Source: Rhodospirillaceae bacterium
Lineage (GTDB): Bacteria > Pseudomonadota > Alphaproteobacteria > Rhodospirillales > Magnetovibrionaceae
Direction: 5' to 3'
Assembly (NCBI GenBank): GCA_002401565.1
Contig: NVTL01000002.1
Span: 9,298-21,406, forward strand
Length of the DNA: 12,109 nucleotides
Shown here: positions 3,135-11,540 of the stretch, piece after piece
Layout of the letters: each line of letters starts with the position of its first letter
How positions within the stretch are numbered: position 1 is the stretch's first letter
Translations under genes and position numbers: made by a program
The notes under the pieces: generated by a model
What the model saw: the letters and a program-made list of their open reading frames with translations, nothing else
What the model was told of the DNA's origin: nothing
Database searches by the model: none

Positions 3135-3941
3135 GTGGGCCACATAGATTTTGCCACCCTCATTGGGTTGATCATCGGGGTAGTTGTTGTTGTTGCAGCG
3201 ATTCTGGTGGGCTCGGGACTCGATATTTTCCTCAATCTGCCCGGTTTTTTGATCGTGGTCGGCGGCACCATGGCCGCAACGTTTGTTAAATTCCCCCTCA
3301 ATAAAGTGTTTATCGCTTTAAAAACGGGCGGCCAAACAGCGGTCATGAACGTGCAGCAAGATCCCCGTGCTTTGATCGATACTTCTTTGGAGCTTGCCGA
3401 AATCGCCCGAAAAAACGGTGTTTTGGCCTTGGAAAGTGTCGAAATTAAAAACCTCTTTTTCAAACGCGGCATTAAACTTTGCGTCGATGGCCACCCCGCA
3501 GACGTGATCCGCAGCGCCATGTTGCGTGATATGGAACTGTCCATTCACCGCAACGAAGAAGGCTCGCATATTTTTTCGGCCATCGGCGATAGTGCTCCGG
3601 CGTTTGGCATGATCGGAACCTTGGTGGGTTTGGTGCAGATGCTGTCGGCCATGGATGACCCCAAATCCATCGGCCCGGCCATGGCGGTGGCGCTGTTGAC
3701 CACCTTGTACGGCGCGATTATTGCCAACCTGATTGCCCTGCCGATTTCCGATAAATTGGAATCCAAAACCGAAGAAGAACGCCTCACCAAAGAGCTGATC
3801 TTGGAAGCCATTATGCAAATCCAAGCGCGCCAAAGCCCGATGATTTTGGCCGATATCTTAGAAGGCTTCCTGCCGGAAAACCAACGCGGACGTGTTGGCG
3901 ATGATGATGACGACGGAGACGAAGAAGAAGACGCAGCATGA
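3135..3941 (+). CDS. motA: Flagellar motor stator protein MotA, PomA-like (Na+-type)
   Basis: MotA forms the inner-membrane ring of the stator and pushes the rotor using ion flow through the MotA-MotB channel. The 268 residues show four membrane segments (about 9-26, 34-50, 152-172 and 180-202). Between TM2 and TM3 is the large cytoplasmic domain, with Arg/Glu-rich parts that contact FliG. TM3 carries GMIGTLVGLVQMLSAMDDP and TM4 carries AVALLTTLYGAI, as in Vibrio PomA. Thr162 and Thr190 align in motif and spacing with PomA Thr158 and Thr186, associated with Na+ use. The protein ends in an unusually acidic tail (residues 256-266, nearly all Asp and Glu). It overlaps motB by ATGA. Family call is firm; ion preference is inferred. 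Confidence 0.96.
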   Translation: MGHIDFATLIGLIIGVVVVVAAILVGSGLDIFLNLPGFLIVVGGTMAATFVKFPLNKVFIALKTGGQTAVMNVQQDPRALIDTSLELAEIARKNGVLALESVEIKNLFFKRGIKLCVDGHPADVIRSAMLRDMELSIHRNEEGSHIFSAIGDSAPAFGMIGTLVGLVQMLSAMDDPKSIGPAMAVALLTTLYGAIIANLIALPISDKLESKTEEERLTKELILEAIMQIQARQSPMILADILEGFLPENQRGRVGDDDDDGDEEEDAA

Positions 3942-4771
3942 GCAAAAAGAAAGCCGCTGGTGCGCCGCTGTGGATTGTGACTTTTGCAGACTTGATGAGT
4001 CTGTTGCTGACCTTTTTTATCTTGTTGCTGTCTTTTTCAAACATGGAAGTTCAAGAATTTAAAAAAGTTGCCGGCGCCATGCGCAGCGCTTTTGGCCTGC
4101 AAACCCAAGACCGCTTGGCGGGCCTCATTGAACTCGACGGCTTTACCGAAAGCAAAGCCGTCAAACACGTGGTGCAAATTCCGTTACCCGAACAAGACAT
4201 CACGGATATGGTGATCCCCGACCAAGAAGACACGCTGGATGAAGGTGAGGACGTGCCTCAGGGCCCGCCTGCTCCACCGCCCCCCAGCGCCGAAGAAATC
4301 GCCAGCAAAAAGTTGTTTGGAGATCTTAAAGACATCATGACCGATGAAATGAAATCCGGGGCCTTGGAACTTTTTCAAGAAGGCAATTCCATTGTCGTGC
4401 GCTTTCCCGCCGAACATTCTTTTGCTTCGGGGCAAAATGGACTGTTGCCGGATATTCTTCCGGTCTTGACCAAAGTCTTGGATGAATTGGAAACGTCCGG
4501 CGGGCAAATTATCATTGCGGGCCATACCGACAACATTCCCATCACCACCGACCAATACAGATCGAATTGGGATTTGTCGGCGAGCCGAGCCGCCTCAGTC
4601 GCTCACTATATTTTAGATTATACGGGCATTCCAGCCAACCGCATTACGGTGCAGGGCTTTGCCGATTCACGCCCGCTGACCAATAACGACACGGTTGAAA
4701 ATCGGGCCAAAAATCGACGCATCGAACTGATCATCGATAAGTTCACAAAAACCATACCAACCAATCCTTAA
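3938..4771 (+). CDS. motB: Flagellar motor stator protein MotB, PomB-like
   Basis: MotB anchors the stator to peptidoglycan and supplies the ion-binding Asp of the channel. The 277 residues show a short basic cytoplasmic N-terminus and one membrane segment (about 11-33) containing TFADLMSLLLTFFILLLSFS, with the essential Asp at position 18. A plug/linker follows, with an acidic, then Pro-rich stretch (about 95-118, with APPPPS). The OmpA-like peptidoglycan-binding domain (about 150-270) carries AGHTDN (194-199), WDLSASRA (211-218) and NRAKNRRIE (255-263). The FADLMSLLLTFF form is PomB/MotS-like rather than the E. coli MotB YADFMTAMMAFF form. Its ATG overlaps the motA stop, so the subunits are probably co-translated. 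Its TAA stop overlaps the stop of the convergent eamA gene. Confidence 0.96.
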   Translation: MSKKKAAGAPLWIVTFADLMSLLLTFFILLLSFSNMEVQEFKKVAGAMRSAFGLQTQDRLAGLIELDGFTESKAVKHVVQIPLPEQDITDMVIPDQEDTLDEGEDVPQGPPAPPPPSAEEIASKKLFGDLKDIMTDEMKSGALELFQEGNSIVVRFPAEHSFASGQNGLLPDILPVLTKVLDELETSGGQIIIAGHTDNIPITTDQYRSNWDLSASRAASVAHYILDYTGIPANRITVQGFADSRPLTNNDTVENRAKNRRIELIIDKFTKTIPTNP

Positions 4772-6088: not shown

Positions 6089-7033
6089 ATGCCGACACTT
6101 TCGCTATACATCACCACCGTGCTGATTTGGGGCTCGACGTGGTATGCCATTAAATTGCAATTGGGGATCGTGGCGCCCGAAGTTTCGGTGGCTTACCGCT
6201 TTGCCATCGCCGCTATTTTATTGCTGTTGTTCAGTGTCATCCGCCGCAAAAACATGCGTTATAGCCGCAAAGAGCATGGCTGGATGGCGATTTTGGGCTT
6301 TTTTCTGTTTTGTTCCAATTATGCGGTCTTTTATGTGGCAACCGGGTATTTAACGTCCGGCTTGGTCGCCGTGGTGTTTTCCACCGTGGTCTTTTGGAAT
6401 ATCTTTTTTGGGCGTATTTTATTCGGCACACCCGTATCTGCGCGTGTTGTCTTCAGTACTTTTTTAGGCATCGGCGGGTTAGCTTTGGTGTTTTGGCCTG
6501 AAATCGCTGACCTGCAAGGCGATGGAGATGTGATGCACGGCCTGACGTTGTGCATCTTTGCCACGGTTTTGGCTTCGCTGGGCAACATCACGTCTGGGCA
6601 CATCCAACGCAAGGGCCTGCCCGTGTTGCAAAGCAATGCGTATGGCATGGCCTATGGTGCAGCGTTTACGGCTCTGTATGCTCTGGCGGCGGGTTTGGAC
6701 TTTAACTGGGACCCCGCGCCCGCATATTTAGGATCGTTAATTTACTTGGCGATCTTTGGCTCTATTTTAGCCTTTGGCGCCTACCTGACATTGTTAGGCC
6801 GCATCGGCGCGGGCAAGGCTGCGTACGCCGCCGTATTGTTCCCGGTCGTGGCCTTAACCATGTCGGTATTTTTGGAAAGTTATGCGTTTACGCCGCTGGC
6901 GGGATTGGGCGTGATTTTGGTTTTAGGCGGCAATGTTATTGCGCTGACCAAGATCAGGGCGTCAAAGCCGCCGTCTCTAACCGACCCAAAAGACGCTCAA
7001 ACAAAACCTGTTCTTTCGCCAAAAAGCGATTAA
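6089..7033 (+). CDS. EamA-domain (DMT superfamily) transporter
   Basis: A 314-residue inner-membrane protein with two EamA repeats and about ten helices. It begins MPTLSLYITTVLIWGSTWYAIK, the classic first helix of the family with the conserved WGS(T/S) motif, followed by a VAYRFAIAAILLL second helix. The second repeat starts near residue 150 and includes YLAIFGSILAFGAYLTLLGRIG, another typical signature. It belongs to a different subgroup from the EamA protein at 4768-5652, with little visible similarity outside the fold. Substrate unknown. After the last helix it has a hydrophilic tail of about 27 residues rich in Pro, Lys and Asp. That tail is encoded in the same DNA as the C-terminus of the convergent ferritin-like gene (overlap 6954-7033). 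The Shine-Dalgarno before the ATG is weak. Confidence 0.9.
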   Translation: MPTLSLYITTVLIWGSTWYAIKLQLGIVAPEVSVAYRFAIAAILLLLFSVIRRKNMRYSRKEHGWMAILGFFLFCSNYAVFYVATGYLTSGLVAVVFSTVVFWNIFFGRILFGTPVSARVVFSTFLGIGGLALVFWPEIADLQGDGDVMHGLTLCIFATVLASLGNITSGHIQRKGLPVLQSNAYGMAYGAAFTALYALAAGLDFNWDPAPAYLGSLIYLAIFGSILAFGAYLTLLGRIGAGKAAYAAVLFPVVALTMSVFLESYAFTPLAGLGVILVLGGNVIALTKIRASKPPSLTDPKDAQTKPVLSPKSD

Positions 7034-7610
7034 CACGTTCAGACGTATCGGCGTCTAAATTCGCCAGATTCTCTTCCATTTCGGTCAAATGGCCCTGTTC
7101 TTCGGCCAGCAGGCTTTTTAACGACAGCTTGATCCCCGCCGCATCCAAACAGGTCTGGTACAACCCAAATGACCACACCGCGCGAAATTCGATAATCATC
7201 GACATATACAGGTACGCAATACGCAAAGGCTCGGCTTCGTCTTTGACGTCCAACGCGATATAGCTTTCCAGACGTTTAAAATACATGCGCGCAAACGGCG
7301 AGGCGATCATGTCTTCGTCGGCGTATTCCAAGGATCGCCCGGCCATTTTATCGGCTTTGCGTTTGAAAAAGAACGCGTGGCGGACTTCTTCGGCCATGTG
7401 TTTTAAGGTTTCTTGGCCCAGACCCGCATTGCTTTGCGTGATCATGATGCGCCGTGACCCCATGTGTTCCATCATCGACAAGGTATTTAAAAACCGCGCA
7501 TGGGTTTCCTTATCTTGGACAATGGTATCCATACAAACGCCTAATCTGGCCGCAAAGGGCTGATTGGCGGTCTCAAAGTCCAAGTAGGTCGGGTGCGTTT
7601 GAAAGGGCAT
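6954..7610 (-). CDS. Ferritin-like di-iron protein of unknown function in the biotin operon
   Basis: I do not recognise this 218-residue protein as a named family. It is soluble, helical, and carries a complete ferritin-like di-iron ligand pattern: Glu48 in MMEHMGSRR, Glu75-x-x-His78 in MAEEVRHAFF, Glu141 in IIEFRAVW, and Glu171-x-x-His174 in AEEQGHLTE. The spacings (27 and 30 residues within each pair) are those of four-helix carboxylate-bridged di-iron proteins such as MiaE, Coq7, ribonucleotide reductase R2 and rubrerythrin. No rubredoxin domain or CxxC is present. It is the fifth gene after bioB, bioF, bioD and bioA, and its ATG lies inside bioA (38-base overlap), so it belongs to the operon. 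A later ATG at 7532 is possible and would keep all ligands. The 3' end overlaps the convergent EamA gene by 80 bases. An oxidative step in biotin precursor synthesis is inference only. Confidence 0.82.
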   Translation of the reverse strand: MPFQTHPTYLDFETANQPFAARLGVCMDTIVQDKETHARFLNTLSMMEHMGSRRIMITQSNAGLGQETLKHMAEEVRHAFFFKRKADKMAGRSLEYADEDMIASPFARMYFKRLESYIALDVKDEAEPLRIAYLYMSMIIEFRAVWSFGLYQTCLDAAGIKLSLKSLLAEEQGHLTEMEENLANLDADTSERVNRFLAKEQVLFERLLGRLETAALTP

Positions 7611-8841
7611 GATAAATCTTATCCAAGTCGTCGTCGGTCACACAGTACGGAGGCATTATATAAACCGTGTTTCCAAGTGGACGCAACAACACATCGCATT
7701 TTTGAAAATAGTCGTACAGTTTTGGCGCTATATTTGACAGATAACCTTGGTCGGGAACCGTAATATCCACCGCCGCAATTGTACCGCACTGGCGCACATT
7801 TGAAAAATGCGAATCCATGGACAGCTTGTGCAAACGGTCAGCCTGACGCCCCACCAACGTATCGATGCGTTCACGCACAGGCTCATTTTTCCACACTTGA
7901 GTATTCGCATAGGCCACCGCGCACGCAATTGGATTTGCCGTGTACGAGCTGGAATGAAAAAACATCTTTGCCCGGTCTTTGCTGTAATGGGCATCATAAA
8001 AACGCTGATGGCATAAGGTCGCCGCCAACGGCATCAAGCCGCCCGTCAAACCCTTGGATGTACACAAAATATCGGGCACAACGTCCGCTTGTTCACAGGC
8101 AAACAAGGTTCCGGTGCGACCCCACCCGGTCATCACTTCGTCGGCGATAAAAACCACATCATCGCTTTCGCAAACGGTTTTTAAGTCTTTTAAAACAGAG
8201 GCTTCGTACATTAACATGCCGCCCGCGCCCAACACCAAAGGCTCGACGATCAGGGCCGCGATTTGCCCTGGATTATCGACTAGTAGTTTTTTCAAAGCCT
8301 CGGACGTTTCCTTTTCTTTGCCGGGGCTTGGAAACGGAATGGTATCGACTTCAAACAGCAACGGAGCATACGCCGCGTTATAAACGCCGCGTTCACCCAC
8401 CGACATGGTGCCAATGGTATCGCCGTGATAGCTGTGGTCCATGACAACAATGCGTTGGCGTTGGCGTTCGCCCAAGTTGTGCCAATAGCCCAAGGCCATT
8501 TTTAAGGCGACTTCCACGGCGGTTGAGCCGCTATCGGAAAAGAAAATTTTGTCCAGACCGTTTGGCACCATGTCCATCAAGGCGTCGGCCAGCTTTTCGG
8601 CCGGGTCATGGGTGTGACCCGCAAAAATGACTTGATCTAAGGTGCTTACCTGCTCTTTTGCGGCCTCAACCAGAGCCGGATGACAGTGCCCATGGGTCAC
8701 CACCCACCACGATGAAATAGCATCAATGATTTGACGATTATCGGGAGCATACAGATAGGCGCCTTCGGCCCGGTCAATTTTGGTCATTTGGGGCATCAAG
8801 GCGTGTTGGGTGAAAGGATGCCAAATATGTGATAAGGTCAT
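7573..8841 (-). CDS. bioA: Adenosylmethionine-8-amino-7-oxononanoate aminotransferase
   Basis: BioA converts KAPA to 7,8-diaminopelargonate (DAPA) with S-adenosylmethionine as amino donor, using PLP. The 422 residues match the family length. Signatures are IWHPFTQH near the N-terminus (6-13), SSWWVVTHGHCHP (43-55), the PLP-phosphate motif SDSGSTAVEVALK (102-114), DHSYHGDT (135-142), FIADEVMTGWGRTG (231-244, with PLP-ring Asp234), and the PLP lysine in CTSKGLTGG (Lys263). The SSWW and HPFT motifs separate it from other class III aminotransferases. The ATG follows the bioD stop by two bases with no clear Shine-Dalgarno, so translation is probably coupled to bioD. Its last 38 bases overlap the ferritin-like gene. 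Confidence 0.97.
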   Translation of the reverse strand: MTLSHIWHPFTQHALMPQMTKIDRAEGAYLYAPDNRQIIDAISSWWVVTHGHCHPALVEAAKEQVSTLDQVIFAGHTHDPAEKLADALMDMVPNGLDKIFFSDSGSTAVEVALKMALGYWHNLGERQRQRIVVMDHSYHGDTIGTMSVGERGVYNAAYAPLLFEVDTIPFPSPGKEKETSEALKKLLVDNPGQIAALIVEPLVLGAGGMLMYEASVLKDLKTVCESDDVVFIADEVMTGWGRTGTLFACEQADVVPDILCTSKGLTGGLMPLAATLCHQRFYDAHYSKDRAKMFFHSSSYTANPIACAVAYANTQVWKNEPVRERIDTLVGRQADRLHKLSMDSHFSNVRQCGTIAAVDITVPDQGYLSNIAPKLYDYFQKCDVLLRPLGNTVYIMPPYCVTDDDLDKIYHALSNAPDLLGL

Positions 8842-8843
8842 TT

Positions 8844-9458
8844 TTATATACTAAAATCTTGGATGTTAAAATTACGGTTAAAAACTTGAATGAGATTTTC
8901 TGCATCCAAGTTAGTCAGCAAAGGCAAGCGCCCAAGCACCTTTTGCCCACTGATTTGGGCAATCGTTTGCATATTATCTTCATTTTCATCACCCACAAAT
9001 ATAAGACCGAGCACATTCATGTCCCGCGCCCGCAGCGCTTCCAAAGACAATAAAGTGTGATTAAGGGTGCCAAGTCCGGTTCGGGCCACCAAAATAATCG
9101 GTTGATTCCACGTTTTAAAAAGGTCAATGAAAAGAACTTGTCTGTTAACGGGCACCATAAGCCCACCGGCACCCTCGACAATTAACATGGGCTCGTCGGG
9201 TGGCGTCAATTGGCTTAAATTAACCTCAACACCCTCTAATTCCGCCGCCCGGTGTGGCGAAAGCGGGGCTTTCAACTCAACGGGGCTGGGCAATATACGA
9301 TCAGGCCCCAAACCCGTCATACGCCGAACAGCTTGCACATCTGTTTCGGGGTCTGTTCCGCATTGGATGGGTTTAAAATATTTTGCCCCCAAAGCCAGCG
9401 TCAACATGGCCGCAACCACGGATTTGCCAATATCGGTGTCGGTTCCGGTGATAATCAC
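8844..9458 (-). CDS. bioD: Dethiobiotin synthetase
   Basis: BioD closes the ureido ring of dethiobiotin from DAPA, CO2 and ATP. The 204 residues are somewhat shorter than the roughly 225 of E. coli BioD. They carry the P-loop GTDTDIGKS (5-13, Lys12), the FKPIQCG motif with Lys29, which corresponds to the substrate-binding YKPVASG block, and LIVEGAGGLMVPV (92-104) with Glu95. The C-terminal part contains LIFVGDENEDNM, the adenine-binding side. The start is GTG at 9458, forming a GTGA overlap with the bioF stop; no ATG fits the conserved N-terminus. Two bases separate its TAA stop from bioA. Confidence 0.95.
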   Translation of the reverse strand: MIITGTDTDIGKSVVAAMLTLALGAKYFKPIQCGTDPETDVQAVRRMTGLGPDRILPSPVELKAPLSPHRAAELEGVEVNLSQLTPPDEPMLIVEGAGGLMVPVNRQVLFIDLFKTWNQPIILVARTGLGTLNHTLLSLEALRARDMNVLGLIFVGDENEDNMQTIAQISGQKVLGRLPLLTNLDAENLIQVFNRNFNIQDFSI

Positions 9459-10549
9459 GATATCACCGCTTTCGCCAAATCCTCAATATCGGTTGGAGTG
9501 ACGTTTAAGGTGATGCTGAGCCGCAGCCGCGCGGTGTTTTTTGGCACCGTTGGGGTGCGAATGGCGCGAATGTCAAAACCCTGCTCTTGCAGGCGTTTGG
9601 CCTGTGCAAAGGCCGCCCCATCGCCGCCGATGATCAACGGAATAATTTGCGTTTCCCCCGGCACGTTTTTAAAGGTCCCATGGGCATGGCTGATCAAGTC
9701 CAGTAATTTCGCCCGGCGATCCGGTTCATCGCGCACAGCTTTTAACGCGGCCTCAACCGCGACTGCCATCAGGGGCGTCGGGGCCGTGGTGTAAATAAAG
9801 CTGCGCGCCGTATTGATCAGATAATCTTTCAACACAGCCGACAAGGTCACCAGCGCACCCGCTTGGCCCAAGGCTTTTCCACAGGTGTGCACGGCGATCA
9901 GATTTTCAGCACCTTCGAATACGGCGCTTAATCCGCGTCCGTCCGGACCATGAACCCCTGTTGCGTGGGCTTCGTCGACAATCAGATACGCGTCATAACG
10001 GTTCGCGATGTCCATCAATTGGGCCAGCGGGGCCATGTCGCCATCCATGGAATAGACGCTTTCCACCGCGATCCAGATGTTTTTGGCGCCCCGGTCCCGT
10101 GCACGTTTCACCGCGTCTTCACAGGCGCTGGCGTTGTTGTGGGCGAATTTTGAATGTTTAGCCGGCGAGGCATGAATGCCTTCTTTGGCGCTGGCGTGCA
10201 CATATTCATCAAAGATGATTTTGTCGCCGCGTGCGGCCAAAGCCGTAAAAACCGCCAAATTTGCCAAGTATCCGGTGGACATAAACAGGGCGGCCTCGGC
10301 CCCAAAAAAGTCTGCGGCAAAGGATTCCAAGCTTTCATGTTGGGGGTGATTACCACGCAGCAAGCGCGATCCGCCCGCACCCAACGCAATATCGCTTTGC
10401 AAATGCTCAATCAGGTTTTGACGAAGGCCCTCATGGTTTGCCAGACCCAAATAATCGTTCGAGCTGAAATCGATTCCATTTGCCGAAATAAGAGCGCGTC
10501 GTTTATTCAGCGCCGACAGCTCGGTCAGCTTGTCCTGAAACAAATTCAT
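9455..10549 (-). CDS. bioF: 8-amino-7-oxononanoate synthase
   Basis: BioF condenses pimeloyl-ACP (or -CoA) with L-alanine to KAPA using PLP, the first committed step of the ring-assembly pathway. Counting from the ATG at 10549 it has 364 residues. Visible are SSNDYLGL (about 29-36), [19 protein letters not shown] (about 57-75), the [10 protein letters not shown] block (about 162-171), DEAHATG (192-198) with the PLP-ring Asp, and the PLP lysine in HTCGKALG (Lys225). The start is uncertain. An ATG at 10561 has its only AGGA fused to it, whereas that AGGA is well spaced for the GTG at 10552 (8 bases) or the ATG at 10549 (11 bases). The gene starts inside bioB, overlapping its end by about 47 bases, and ends in a four-base overlap with bioD. 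Confidence 0.96.
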
Positions 10550-11540
10550 CACGGGCAACATCCTGATTTTGGGCTTGAGGCGTTTGCGGGCCTTGCGGTT
10601 TTAAATCAAGCCGGGAAAGAAGGTCCATATCGTTGGCCGATTGGACATTGGGCGTGGTCAAAAGCTTTTCACCAAAGAAAACTGAGTTGGCGCCGGCAAA
10701 GAAACACAGCGCTTGCGTTGCTTCGTCCATGCTTTCGCGCCCGGCCGATAAGCGTACATACGAATTGGGCATCATGATGCGCGCAACCGCCACGGTGCGA
10801 ACAAAGATGAATGGATCAATCTTATCTGCGTTTTCCAAGGGCGTGCCTTTGACGCGCACCAGCAAATTGATGGGCACGCTGCCGGGGTGTTCCCCCATAT
10901 TTGCCAATTCCATCAAAAGTGCCGAACGGTCAGATTCACCCTCACCAAGGCCTAAAATACCTCCGCAACAGACATTTATACCTGCGTCGCGGACTTTTTC
11001 CAGCGTGTCGAGGCGATCTTGGAATTTACGCGTGGTGATGATTTTTTCATAATGTTCGCGTGATGTATCCAGATTGTGATTGTAATAATCCAGCCCCGCG
11101 TCTTTTAGGGCACGCGTTTGATCTTCATCTAACGATCCCAACGTCACACAACATTCCATGCCGATACCTTTGACACCGCGGATCATGTCCAAAACCATGG
11201 GGAAATCGTGTGAATTTGGATTTTTCCACGCAGCACCCATGCAAAAACGCGTGGCGCCTCTATCTTTGGCGGCGTGCGCCTGTTCCATCACCTTTTCAAT
11301 TTCGACCAGGCGTTCTTTTTCCAAATCCGTGCCGTGATGTGCACTTTGCGGACAATATCCACAATCTTCGGGACAGCCACCCGTTTTGATCGACATCAGG
11401 GAACTAAATTGAATTTCGTTTGGGTCGAACACAGCTTTGTGAACCGTGTGGGCGCGATACAGCAATTCCATAAACGGTAAATCGTAAAGGGACTGAACTT
11501 CGTCGAGTGTCCAGTCATAGCGCAAAGTTAAATCGGTCAT
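10503..11540 (-). CDS. bioB: Biotin synthase (radical SAM)
   Basis: BioB inserts sulfur into dethiobiotin. The 345 residues carry the radical SAM motif [13 protein letters not shown], with [4Fe-4S] ligands Cys56, Cys60 and Cys63. The auxiliary [2Fe-2S] ligands Cys100 (RFCMGAAW), Cys131 (CVTLG), Cys191 ([11 protein letters not shown]) and Arg263 (YVRLSAGRE) are all present, each offset by three from E. coli Cys97, Cys128, Cys188 and Arg260. The enzyme should therefore be fully functional. YNHNLDTS (153-160) is the family's substrate/SAM region. The last 35 residues are Gln-rich and poorly conserved and overlap bioF. It is the first gene of the bioBFDA operon and divergent from the TrmH-like gene. 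The ATG at 11540 has only a weak AGG upstream. Confidence 0.98.
10561..10564 (-). promoter_or_regulatory. Ribosome binding site of bioF inside bioB
   Basis: AGGA on the minus strand lies eight bases before the GTG at 10552 and eleven before the ATG at 10549. It shares its last base with an in-frame ATG at 10561, so it cannot serve that codon. It therefore argues for the shorter bioF start. Confidence 0.5.

Follow-up and report, generated by a model that had tools for sequence, protein, structure and literature searches.

The stretch of DNA analysed here, 12,109 nt long and called the window below, contains a compact biotin biosynthesis operon on its minus strand, in the order bioB-bioF-bioD-bioA-diiron gene. 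Pfam and NCBIfam searches support the assignments of the four bio genes. The first gene of the operon, bioB (10503..11540), matches TIGR00433 with 395 bits (cut-off 225), and bioD (8844..9458, GTG start) and bioA (7573..8841) match TIGR00347 (120 bits, cut-off 83) and TIGR00508 (541 bits, cut-off 405), respectively. The best match of bioF (9455..10561) is the bioF model TIGR00858, with 354 bits, under the cut-off of 426. The last gene (6954..7610, minus strand, ATG start) codes for a protein of 218 residues, a putative BioE-type ferritin-like diiron oxygenase as judged from its open reading frame, metal ligands, structural model and profile match. bioB and bioF overlap by 59 nt and bioF and bioD by 4 nt, bioD and bioA are separated by 2 nt, and the diiron gene overlaps bioA by 38 nt, so that its start codon lies inside bioA. 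Gene order, strand and family matches thus agree with the first-pass annotation, which had described a fifth gene of a bioBFDA operon starting within bioA.

A converging gene for an EamA-family transporter (6089-7033, plus strand) overlaps the 3' end of the diiron gene by 80 nt (6954-7033), and MotA-like and MotB-like genes with a 4-nt overlap are found at positions 3135-4771 of the window. No MocR-type BioL regulator was recognised among the identified genes of the window. Scanning the window with a BioR-type site pattern yielded three one-mismatch matches versus 3.8 expected by chance, none of them upstream of bioB.

All six metal ligands that the first-pass annotation had proposed, E48, E75, H78, E141, E171 and H174, are present at these positions of the 218-residue protein. 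They are invariant in a 55-row alignment, the other rows of which are 33-95% identical to the window protein. A ferritin-like four-helix diiron fold had been expected, and the AlphaFold2 model computed from this alignment (mean pLDDT 92.2, pTM 0.90) is consistent with it. The model is all-helical and places all six ligands in four core helices, i.e. E48 in helix 34-58, E75 and H78 in helix 66-90, E141 in helix 128-157, and E171 and H174 in helix 165-184.

The window protein matches no Pfam family at E-values up to 1, and its two NCBIfam matches are both far under the cut-offs. Foldseek searches of PDB and BFVD gave weak matches, none at an E-value of 0.001 or better. Those in PDB include TenA, aldehyde deformylating oxygenase, UndA, MiaE and toluene monooxygenase at E-values of 0.1 and above, with TM-scores of ~0.4-0.6 for most of them, and many other helical proteins are listed too. 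The predicted structure is that of a helical bundle of the oxygenase type, no more. The closest PDB entries in sequence are aldehyde deformylating oxygenases, with weak matches (E-values 0.001-0.04).

Three specific identities were discarded. The cADO family PF11266 does not match the window protein (E-values up to 1) and matches two of 13 relatives, with a best E-value of 0.0026. Similarly, the MiaE family PF06175 does not match the window protein (E-values up to 1) and matches one of the 13 relatives (E-value 0.095). As for BioZ, of the KASIII family, the all-helical model and the lack of any Pfam match at E-values up to 1 speak against this identity. cADO, UndA and MiaE, the oxygenases that the window protein weakly resembles in sequence or fold, catalyse different reactions.

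The nearest known family is that of BioE, the original report of which is said to be a 2025 PNAS paper. According to the accessible part of the published account, BioE is a ferritin-like diiron oxygenase that converts long-chain acyl-ACP to pimeloyl-ACP, requires oxygen and frees Escherichia coli from its need for BioC-BioH (PMC12915131). The term 'uncharacterised' used in the first-pass annotation therefore remains apt for the window protein itself but not for this family, and the 'new route to the pimelate moiety' that it envisaged was already published in 2025 as the BioE route (PMC12915131). The characterised enzymes are EmBioE of Elizabethkingia, with ligands E26, E53, H56, E125, E155 and H158, and CpBioE of Chlamydia psittaci, with ligands E41, E68, H71, E140, E170 and H173; they are described as differing in CoA or ACP use (PMC12915131). 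Our link to both is made via these published residue numbers and the families named in that article, not via a direct alignment.

Like these enzymes, the window protein belongs to a biotin operon and has the same six ligands in the same order, with four of the five spacings equal (27/3/63/30/3 in the window protein versus 27/3/69/30/3 in EmBioE and CpBioE). The difference lies in the distance between H78 and E141, 63 rather than 69 residues. This middle spacing is 59-63 in the alphaproteobacterial branch versus 68-69 in Bacteroidota, and it is shorter still in five proteins of the second family described below. The hydrophobic tunnel and the basic carrier-side positions reported for CpBioE appear to be largely kept. 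Four of the 11 published tunnel residues are identical in the window protein (L37, I48, I139 and Y150, CpBioE numbering), five are replaced by other hydrophobic or aromatic residues (W33F, L40M, L105F, V135M and Y147F), and two differ in kind, namely L146S and L205R, the latter in a poorly aligned region. The published basic residues K46, K47 and K102 correspond to R53, R54 and R108.

We also compared 22 rows with an EmBioE fingerprint of 17 published residue numbers, anchored on the first ligand (L148 and L068 among these rows are one protein). The rows span 6 to 16 matching positions. Two Bacteroidia proteins, L155 and L159, match at 16 of 17, their sole mismatch being K46, which is absent from all 22 rows. 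The middle spacing of the four lowest rows is one residue shorter.

The profile-profile search that had been suggested to place the fold family, run with 29 window-branch sequences against 12 Sphingobacteriaceae-type relatives, gave an E-value of 4.4e-39 over 198 columns. The Sphingobacteriaceae are listed as BioE-bearing, and the Alphaproteobacteria are absent from the list of families in the accessible part of the article (PMC12915131). In our tree, which excludes P0048, P0057 and P0081 as the ligand pattern missed them, the Bacteroidota proteins together make up one side of a branch supported at 100/100. By profile match and tree split, the window protein thus shares a homologous group with them but sits on a deep separate branch. 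Its identity to 97 Bacteroidota rows (80 + 17, at least three of the 17, L197, L199 and L200, being probable doubles of L143, L137 and L144) is 29-37%. The threshold of >40% identity to EmBioE used in the published survey (PMC12915131) would therefore probably not be reached, 40% being a search cut-off and not a definition.

Searching 5.8 billion proteins with the window protein retrieved 152 relatives at an E-value of 1e-3; among the 120 matches listed, those close to the window protein that bear a name are from records of Rhodospirillaceae bacterium and Magnetovibrio sp. A profile search collected 4657 proteins among 8000 candidates scored, and nothing in a plasmid collection matched the window protein at an E-value of 1e-5. 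The gene is present in 4/289 genomes sampled across the class Alphaproteobacteria, in 7/41 close relatives of the window genome, in 11/57 genomes around G276 and in 1/59 around G285 (centre genomes counted in each case). It is thus rare and patchy in Alphaproteobacteria.

The alphaproteobacterial set comprises 20 loci, seven in the family of the window (f1), one in G151, 11 in a second family (f160) and one in G285. A strict ligand pattern caught 15 of the 20 proteins; the others (L028, L179, L181, L184 and L185) were missed because their middle spacing is shorter, and visual inspection located the six ligands in them. The diiron gene directly follows bioA in 19 of these loci, in three families, the exception being G285. 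As to Bacteroidota, a bio gene is found at most 500 bp away in 76 of 80 named loci; these are the best 80 of 185, a sample thus biased to Sphingobacteriaceae. The same holds for 14 of 17 loci from 345 sampled Bacteroidia genomes, and five of the 17 (L205 and L210-L213) have the order B-F-D-A-E, as in the window. The loci with no bio gene nearby are L079, where the gene is at a contig end, L102, L105, L111, L202, L204 and L206. L202 and L204 (proteins L154 and L156), both from Bacteroidia, form a divergent pair in the tree. Most homologues surveyed thus adjoin biotin genes, a tie that the first-pass annotation had put forward as a check of its reading.

It had also suggested a survey of whether the gene anticorrelates with bioC. 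BioE replaces BioC-BioH, according to the accessible part of the published account, and f1, a family of 18 genomes, shows such an exchange. Seven of them, G000-G004, G011 and G013, carry the diiron gene, always beside bioA, and no bioH-bioC pair was found in these seven, four of which are only 59-86% complete (86, 99, 81, 59, 66, 100 and 95%, in the above order). In contrast, the pair is present in the four genomes that have bioBFDA without the diiron gene. Inspection by eye of three-frame translations of ~900 bases after bioA in G007, G009, G015 and G006 revealed no trace of the diiron gene. On supported branches, the exchange amounts to only two independent pairs (three on the best tree); these two are both in the expected direction, with a sign test p of 0.5.

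No f1 genome reaches the curated BioC cut-off of 185 bits, and the identification of the pairs therefore rests on relative scores and synteny. Confirmed pairs have BioC scores of 148-176 bits, versus 53-124 bits for the best matches in the seven gene-bearing genomes and 111-118 bits for paralogue-like second matches in G007, G009 and G015. G005 and the genomes of genus g5 have BioC matches of 122-140 bits, with no pair at the rel-pdxJ locus where examined, and the score bands nearly touch. In genus g4, bioH-bioC is inserted between rel and DUF2062-pdxJ in G007, G009, G015 and G017 (L030-L033). The rel-pdxJ locus is devoid of bioH-bioC in the gene-bearing G011, G013, G000, G001, G003 and G004; that of G002 was not found, and this genome was counted among the seven by BioC search. 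G006, which has no diiron gene, harbours bioH-bioC elsewhere than at rel-pdxJ.

Left out of the count were G005 (only bioB in the stretch examined; best BioC match 137 bits), the 67%-complete G017, which has bioHC but no bioB match reaching the cut-off, and the five g5 genomes, in which no bioB match reaches it either. Among the genomes counted, bioB and the diiron gene are on different contigs in G001, where bioD was not seen, and bioB is on another contig in G004. The bioB gene of G003 (L023 12209-13236), a draft 59% complete, consists of two pieces overlapping in place, as if from a frameshift or an assembly error. According to the accessible part of one article, BioZ is the enzyme that provides pimelate in Alphaproteobacteria (PMC7645780). 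It belongs to the KASIII family, unlike the window protein, and the 12 f1 genomes examined gave a single KASIII match apiece (a fragment in G000), leaving no BioZ candidate.

The second family, f160, gave a different picture. The diiron gene is present in 11 of its 36 genomes. Near full-length BioC-like matches (127-159 bits) occur in ten genomes, i.e. 7/25 without the gene and 3/11 with it, and a BioH-like gene adjoins the BioC-like gene in eight of the ten, including the gene-bearing G684, G688 and G711. With bioH-bioC in 3/11 gene-bearing and 7/25 gene-less genomes, there is no anticorrelation across f160. The other eight gene-bearing genomes have no BioC-level match (≤84 bits), and in each of them bioA, whole or in part, adjoins the gene. 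Within genus g230, the gene occurs without a BioC-level match in G276, G680 and G681, and bioH-bioC without the gene in G678, G679 and G683, whereas G682 has neither. The anticorrelation with bioC thus holds in f1 (seven versus four genomes) and in genus g230 (three versus three) but fails across f160, where three of 11 genomes have both. The loci concerned are L189, L190 and L191 with L179, L180 and L176. Genomes with both could run the BioC-BioH route without air. Outside Alphaproteobacteria, four gene-bearing Sphingobacteriaceae genomes have no BioC match above 90 bits.

The predicted fold, the ligands, the place in the operon, the homology and the exchange with bioH-bioC in f1 all point in the same direction. 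On the basis of homology, operon and genomic exchange, we consider it quite likely that the window gene encodes an alphaproteobacterial BioE that cleaves long-chain acyl-ACP to pimeloyl-ACP. By analogy with published BioE enzymes, from which we infer substrate, reaction, product and oxygen need, this four-helix diiron oxygenase would take O2 and electrons from a donor and cut a long-chain acyl-ACP between C7 and C8. The pimeloyl-ACP would then be turned into biotin by BioF, BioA, BioD and BioB of the same operon. The enzyme would substitute for BioC-BioH, a methyltransferase and an esterase acting through fatty acid synthesis, and for BioZ. Like the predicted window enzyme, BioC-BioH supplies pimeloyl-ACP to BioF, and the pair occurs in sister genomes without the diiron gene. 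BioI is a heme enzyme, with a fold unrelated to that of the diiron protein. The overall job of this Bacillus cytochrome P450, acyl-ACP to pimeloyl-ACP, would be the same (PMC12915131, accessible part), and the pimelate-making diiron oxygenase analogous to BioI proposed in the first-pass annotation is the reading best supported by the homology to BioE, the operon and the exchange.

A biotin-serving diiron oxygenase with a changed substrate or product, for instance one that acts on chains of another length or on acyl-CoA, or that releases a diacid or aldehyde finished by a further enzyme, appears improbable. The deep separate branch, a middle spacing at least five residues shorter (59-63 versus 68-69), the tunnel changes of L146 to S, V135 to M and L105 to F relative to the published CpBioE residues, and the reported difference between EmBioE and CpBioE in CoA or ACP use (PMC12915131, accessible part) are consistent with such a shift. 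However, the basic carrier-side residues are retained, the window operon has no further gene, and the gene-bearing f1 genomes have no BioC-BioH or BioZ candidate.

A role of the diiron protein in guarding the Fe-S enzyme BioB or feeding it iron, in the manner of a ferritin or rubrerythrin, is very unlikely. The ferritin-like helical bundle, the operon shared with bioB and the naming of the relative P0119 as a rubrerythrin by one source would fit this role, but the closest sequences of solved structure are, weakly, aldehyde deformylating oxygenases, and Ferritin_2 matches one of 13 relatives (14 bits, cut-off 24.7) and not the window protein. Moreover, the alternation with bioH-bioC indicates a role at the precursor step, and bioBFDA is kept without the diiron gene in four sister genomes. 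A MiaE-like tRNA hydroxylase or an unrelated passenger gene is hardly credible: MiaE chains are among the weak fold matches, but the Pfam MiaE family matches one of 13 members (E-value 0.095) and not the window protein, and a place after bioA kept in 19 of 20 loci from three families is not expected of a passenger.

The BioE-type gene also has relatives in viral sequences. An IMG/VR scan with profile A1 identified 16 contigs coding for proteins 48-52% identical to the window protein over the best segment, and a second profile retrieved the same 16 (labels L214-L229 and L230-L244). Neither the Bacteroidota profile A3 nor a single-sequence scan with P0001 found a viral relative, and a phage collection searched with a viral relative gave no match at an E-value of 1e-3. 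The six ligands are present in 15 of the 16 copies, which are 63-100% identical to one another; the remaining copy is truncated where its stretch ends. In tblastn searches with the bio genes of the window, no bio gene was found beside the viral copies, in stretches of up to 5 kb on each side. All 16 copies adjoin a relative of the 500-residue phrog_13692 protein, with a head-tail adaptor relative beyond. Head maturation protease and portal relatives lie on the other side in 12 of 16; the stretches of the remaining four are short on that side. The viral diiron gene points against the structural genes. These assignments come from PHROGs searches with eight L221 and two L214 proteins and, for the remainder, from similarity to L221. 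No function is given for phrog_13692, and a capsid role is our guess from its place.

The gene of G285 (L029 6629-7288) is the only alphaproteobacterial copy found away from bioA. In a tree that includes the viral copies, it falls within a set that holds all viral rows, at a weakly supported node (64/72); the stronger node (100/94) holds G285 and the viral rows and also P0061, P0063, P0068, P0096 and P0103. This tree contains six Bacteroidota locus rows and 11 of the 15 viral proteins, the others repeating sequences already included, and it carries a long-branch warning. The 9-kb contig of G285 has no match to the other five phage proteins tested. A transposase-like ORF was seen by eye on the same contig, and G285 has a second match of 42 residues (L012).

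We tentatively propose a BioE subfamily that is peculiar to Proteobacteria and separated long ago, and that a line of tailed phages may carry as a single cargo gene next to a gene of capsid type. If true, these viruses would supply their hosts with the oxygen-dependent first step of biotin synthesis, the first known case of a pimelate-forming enzyme encoded by a virus. The viral branch raises the question of why phages would carry a biotin-precursor or fatty-acid-cutting enzyme. Among the articles listed in our literature searches, which leave out most subscription papers, we found no report of BioE in Alphaproteobacteria or phages. Our findings suggest that a 40% identity threshold makes homology searches overlook an entire branch. 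The BioE route would extend to the Alphaproteobacteria, for which BioZ was the described pathway, and sister species with bioBFDA and either the diiron gene or bioH-bioC form a natural replacement experiment.
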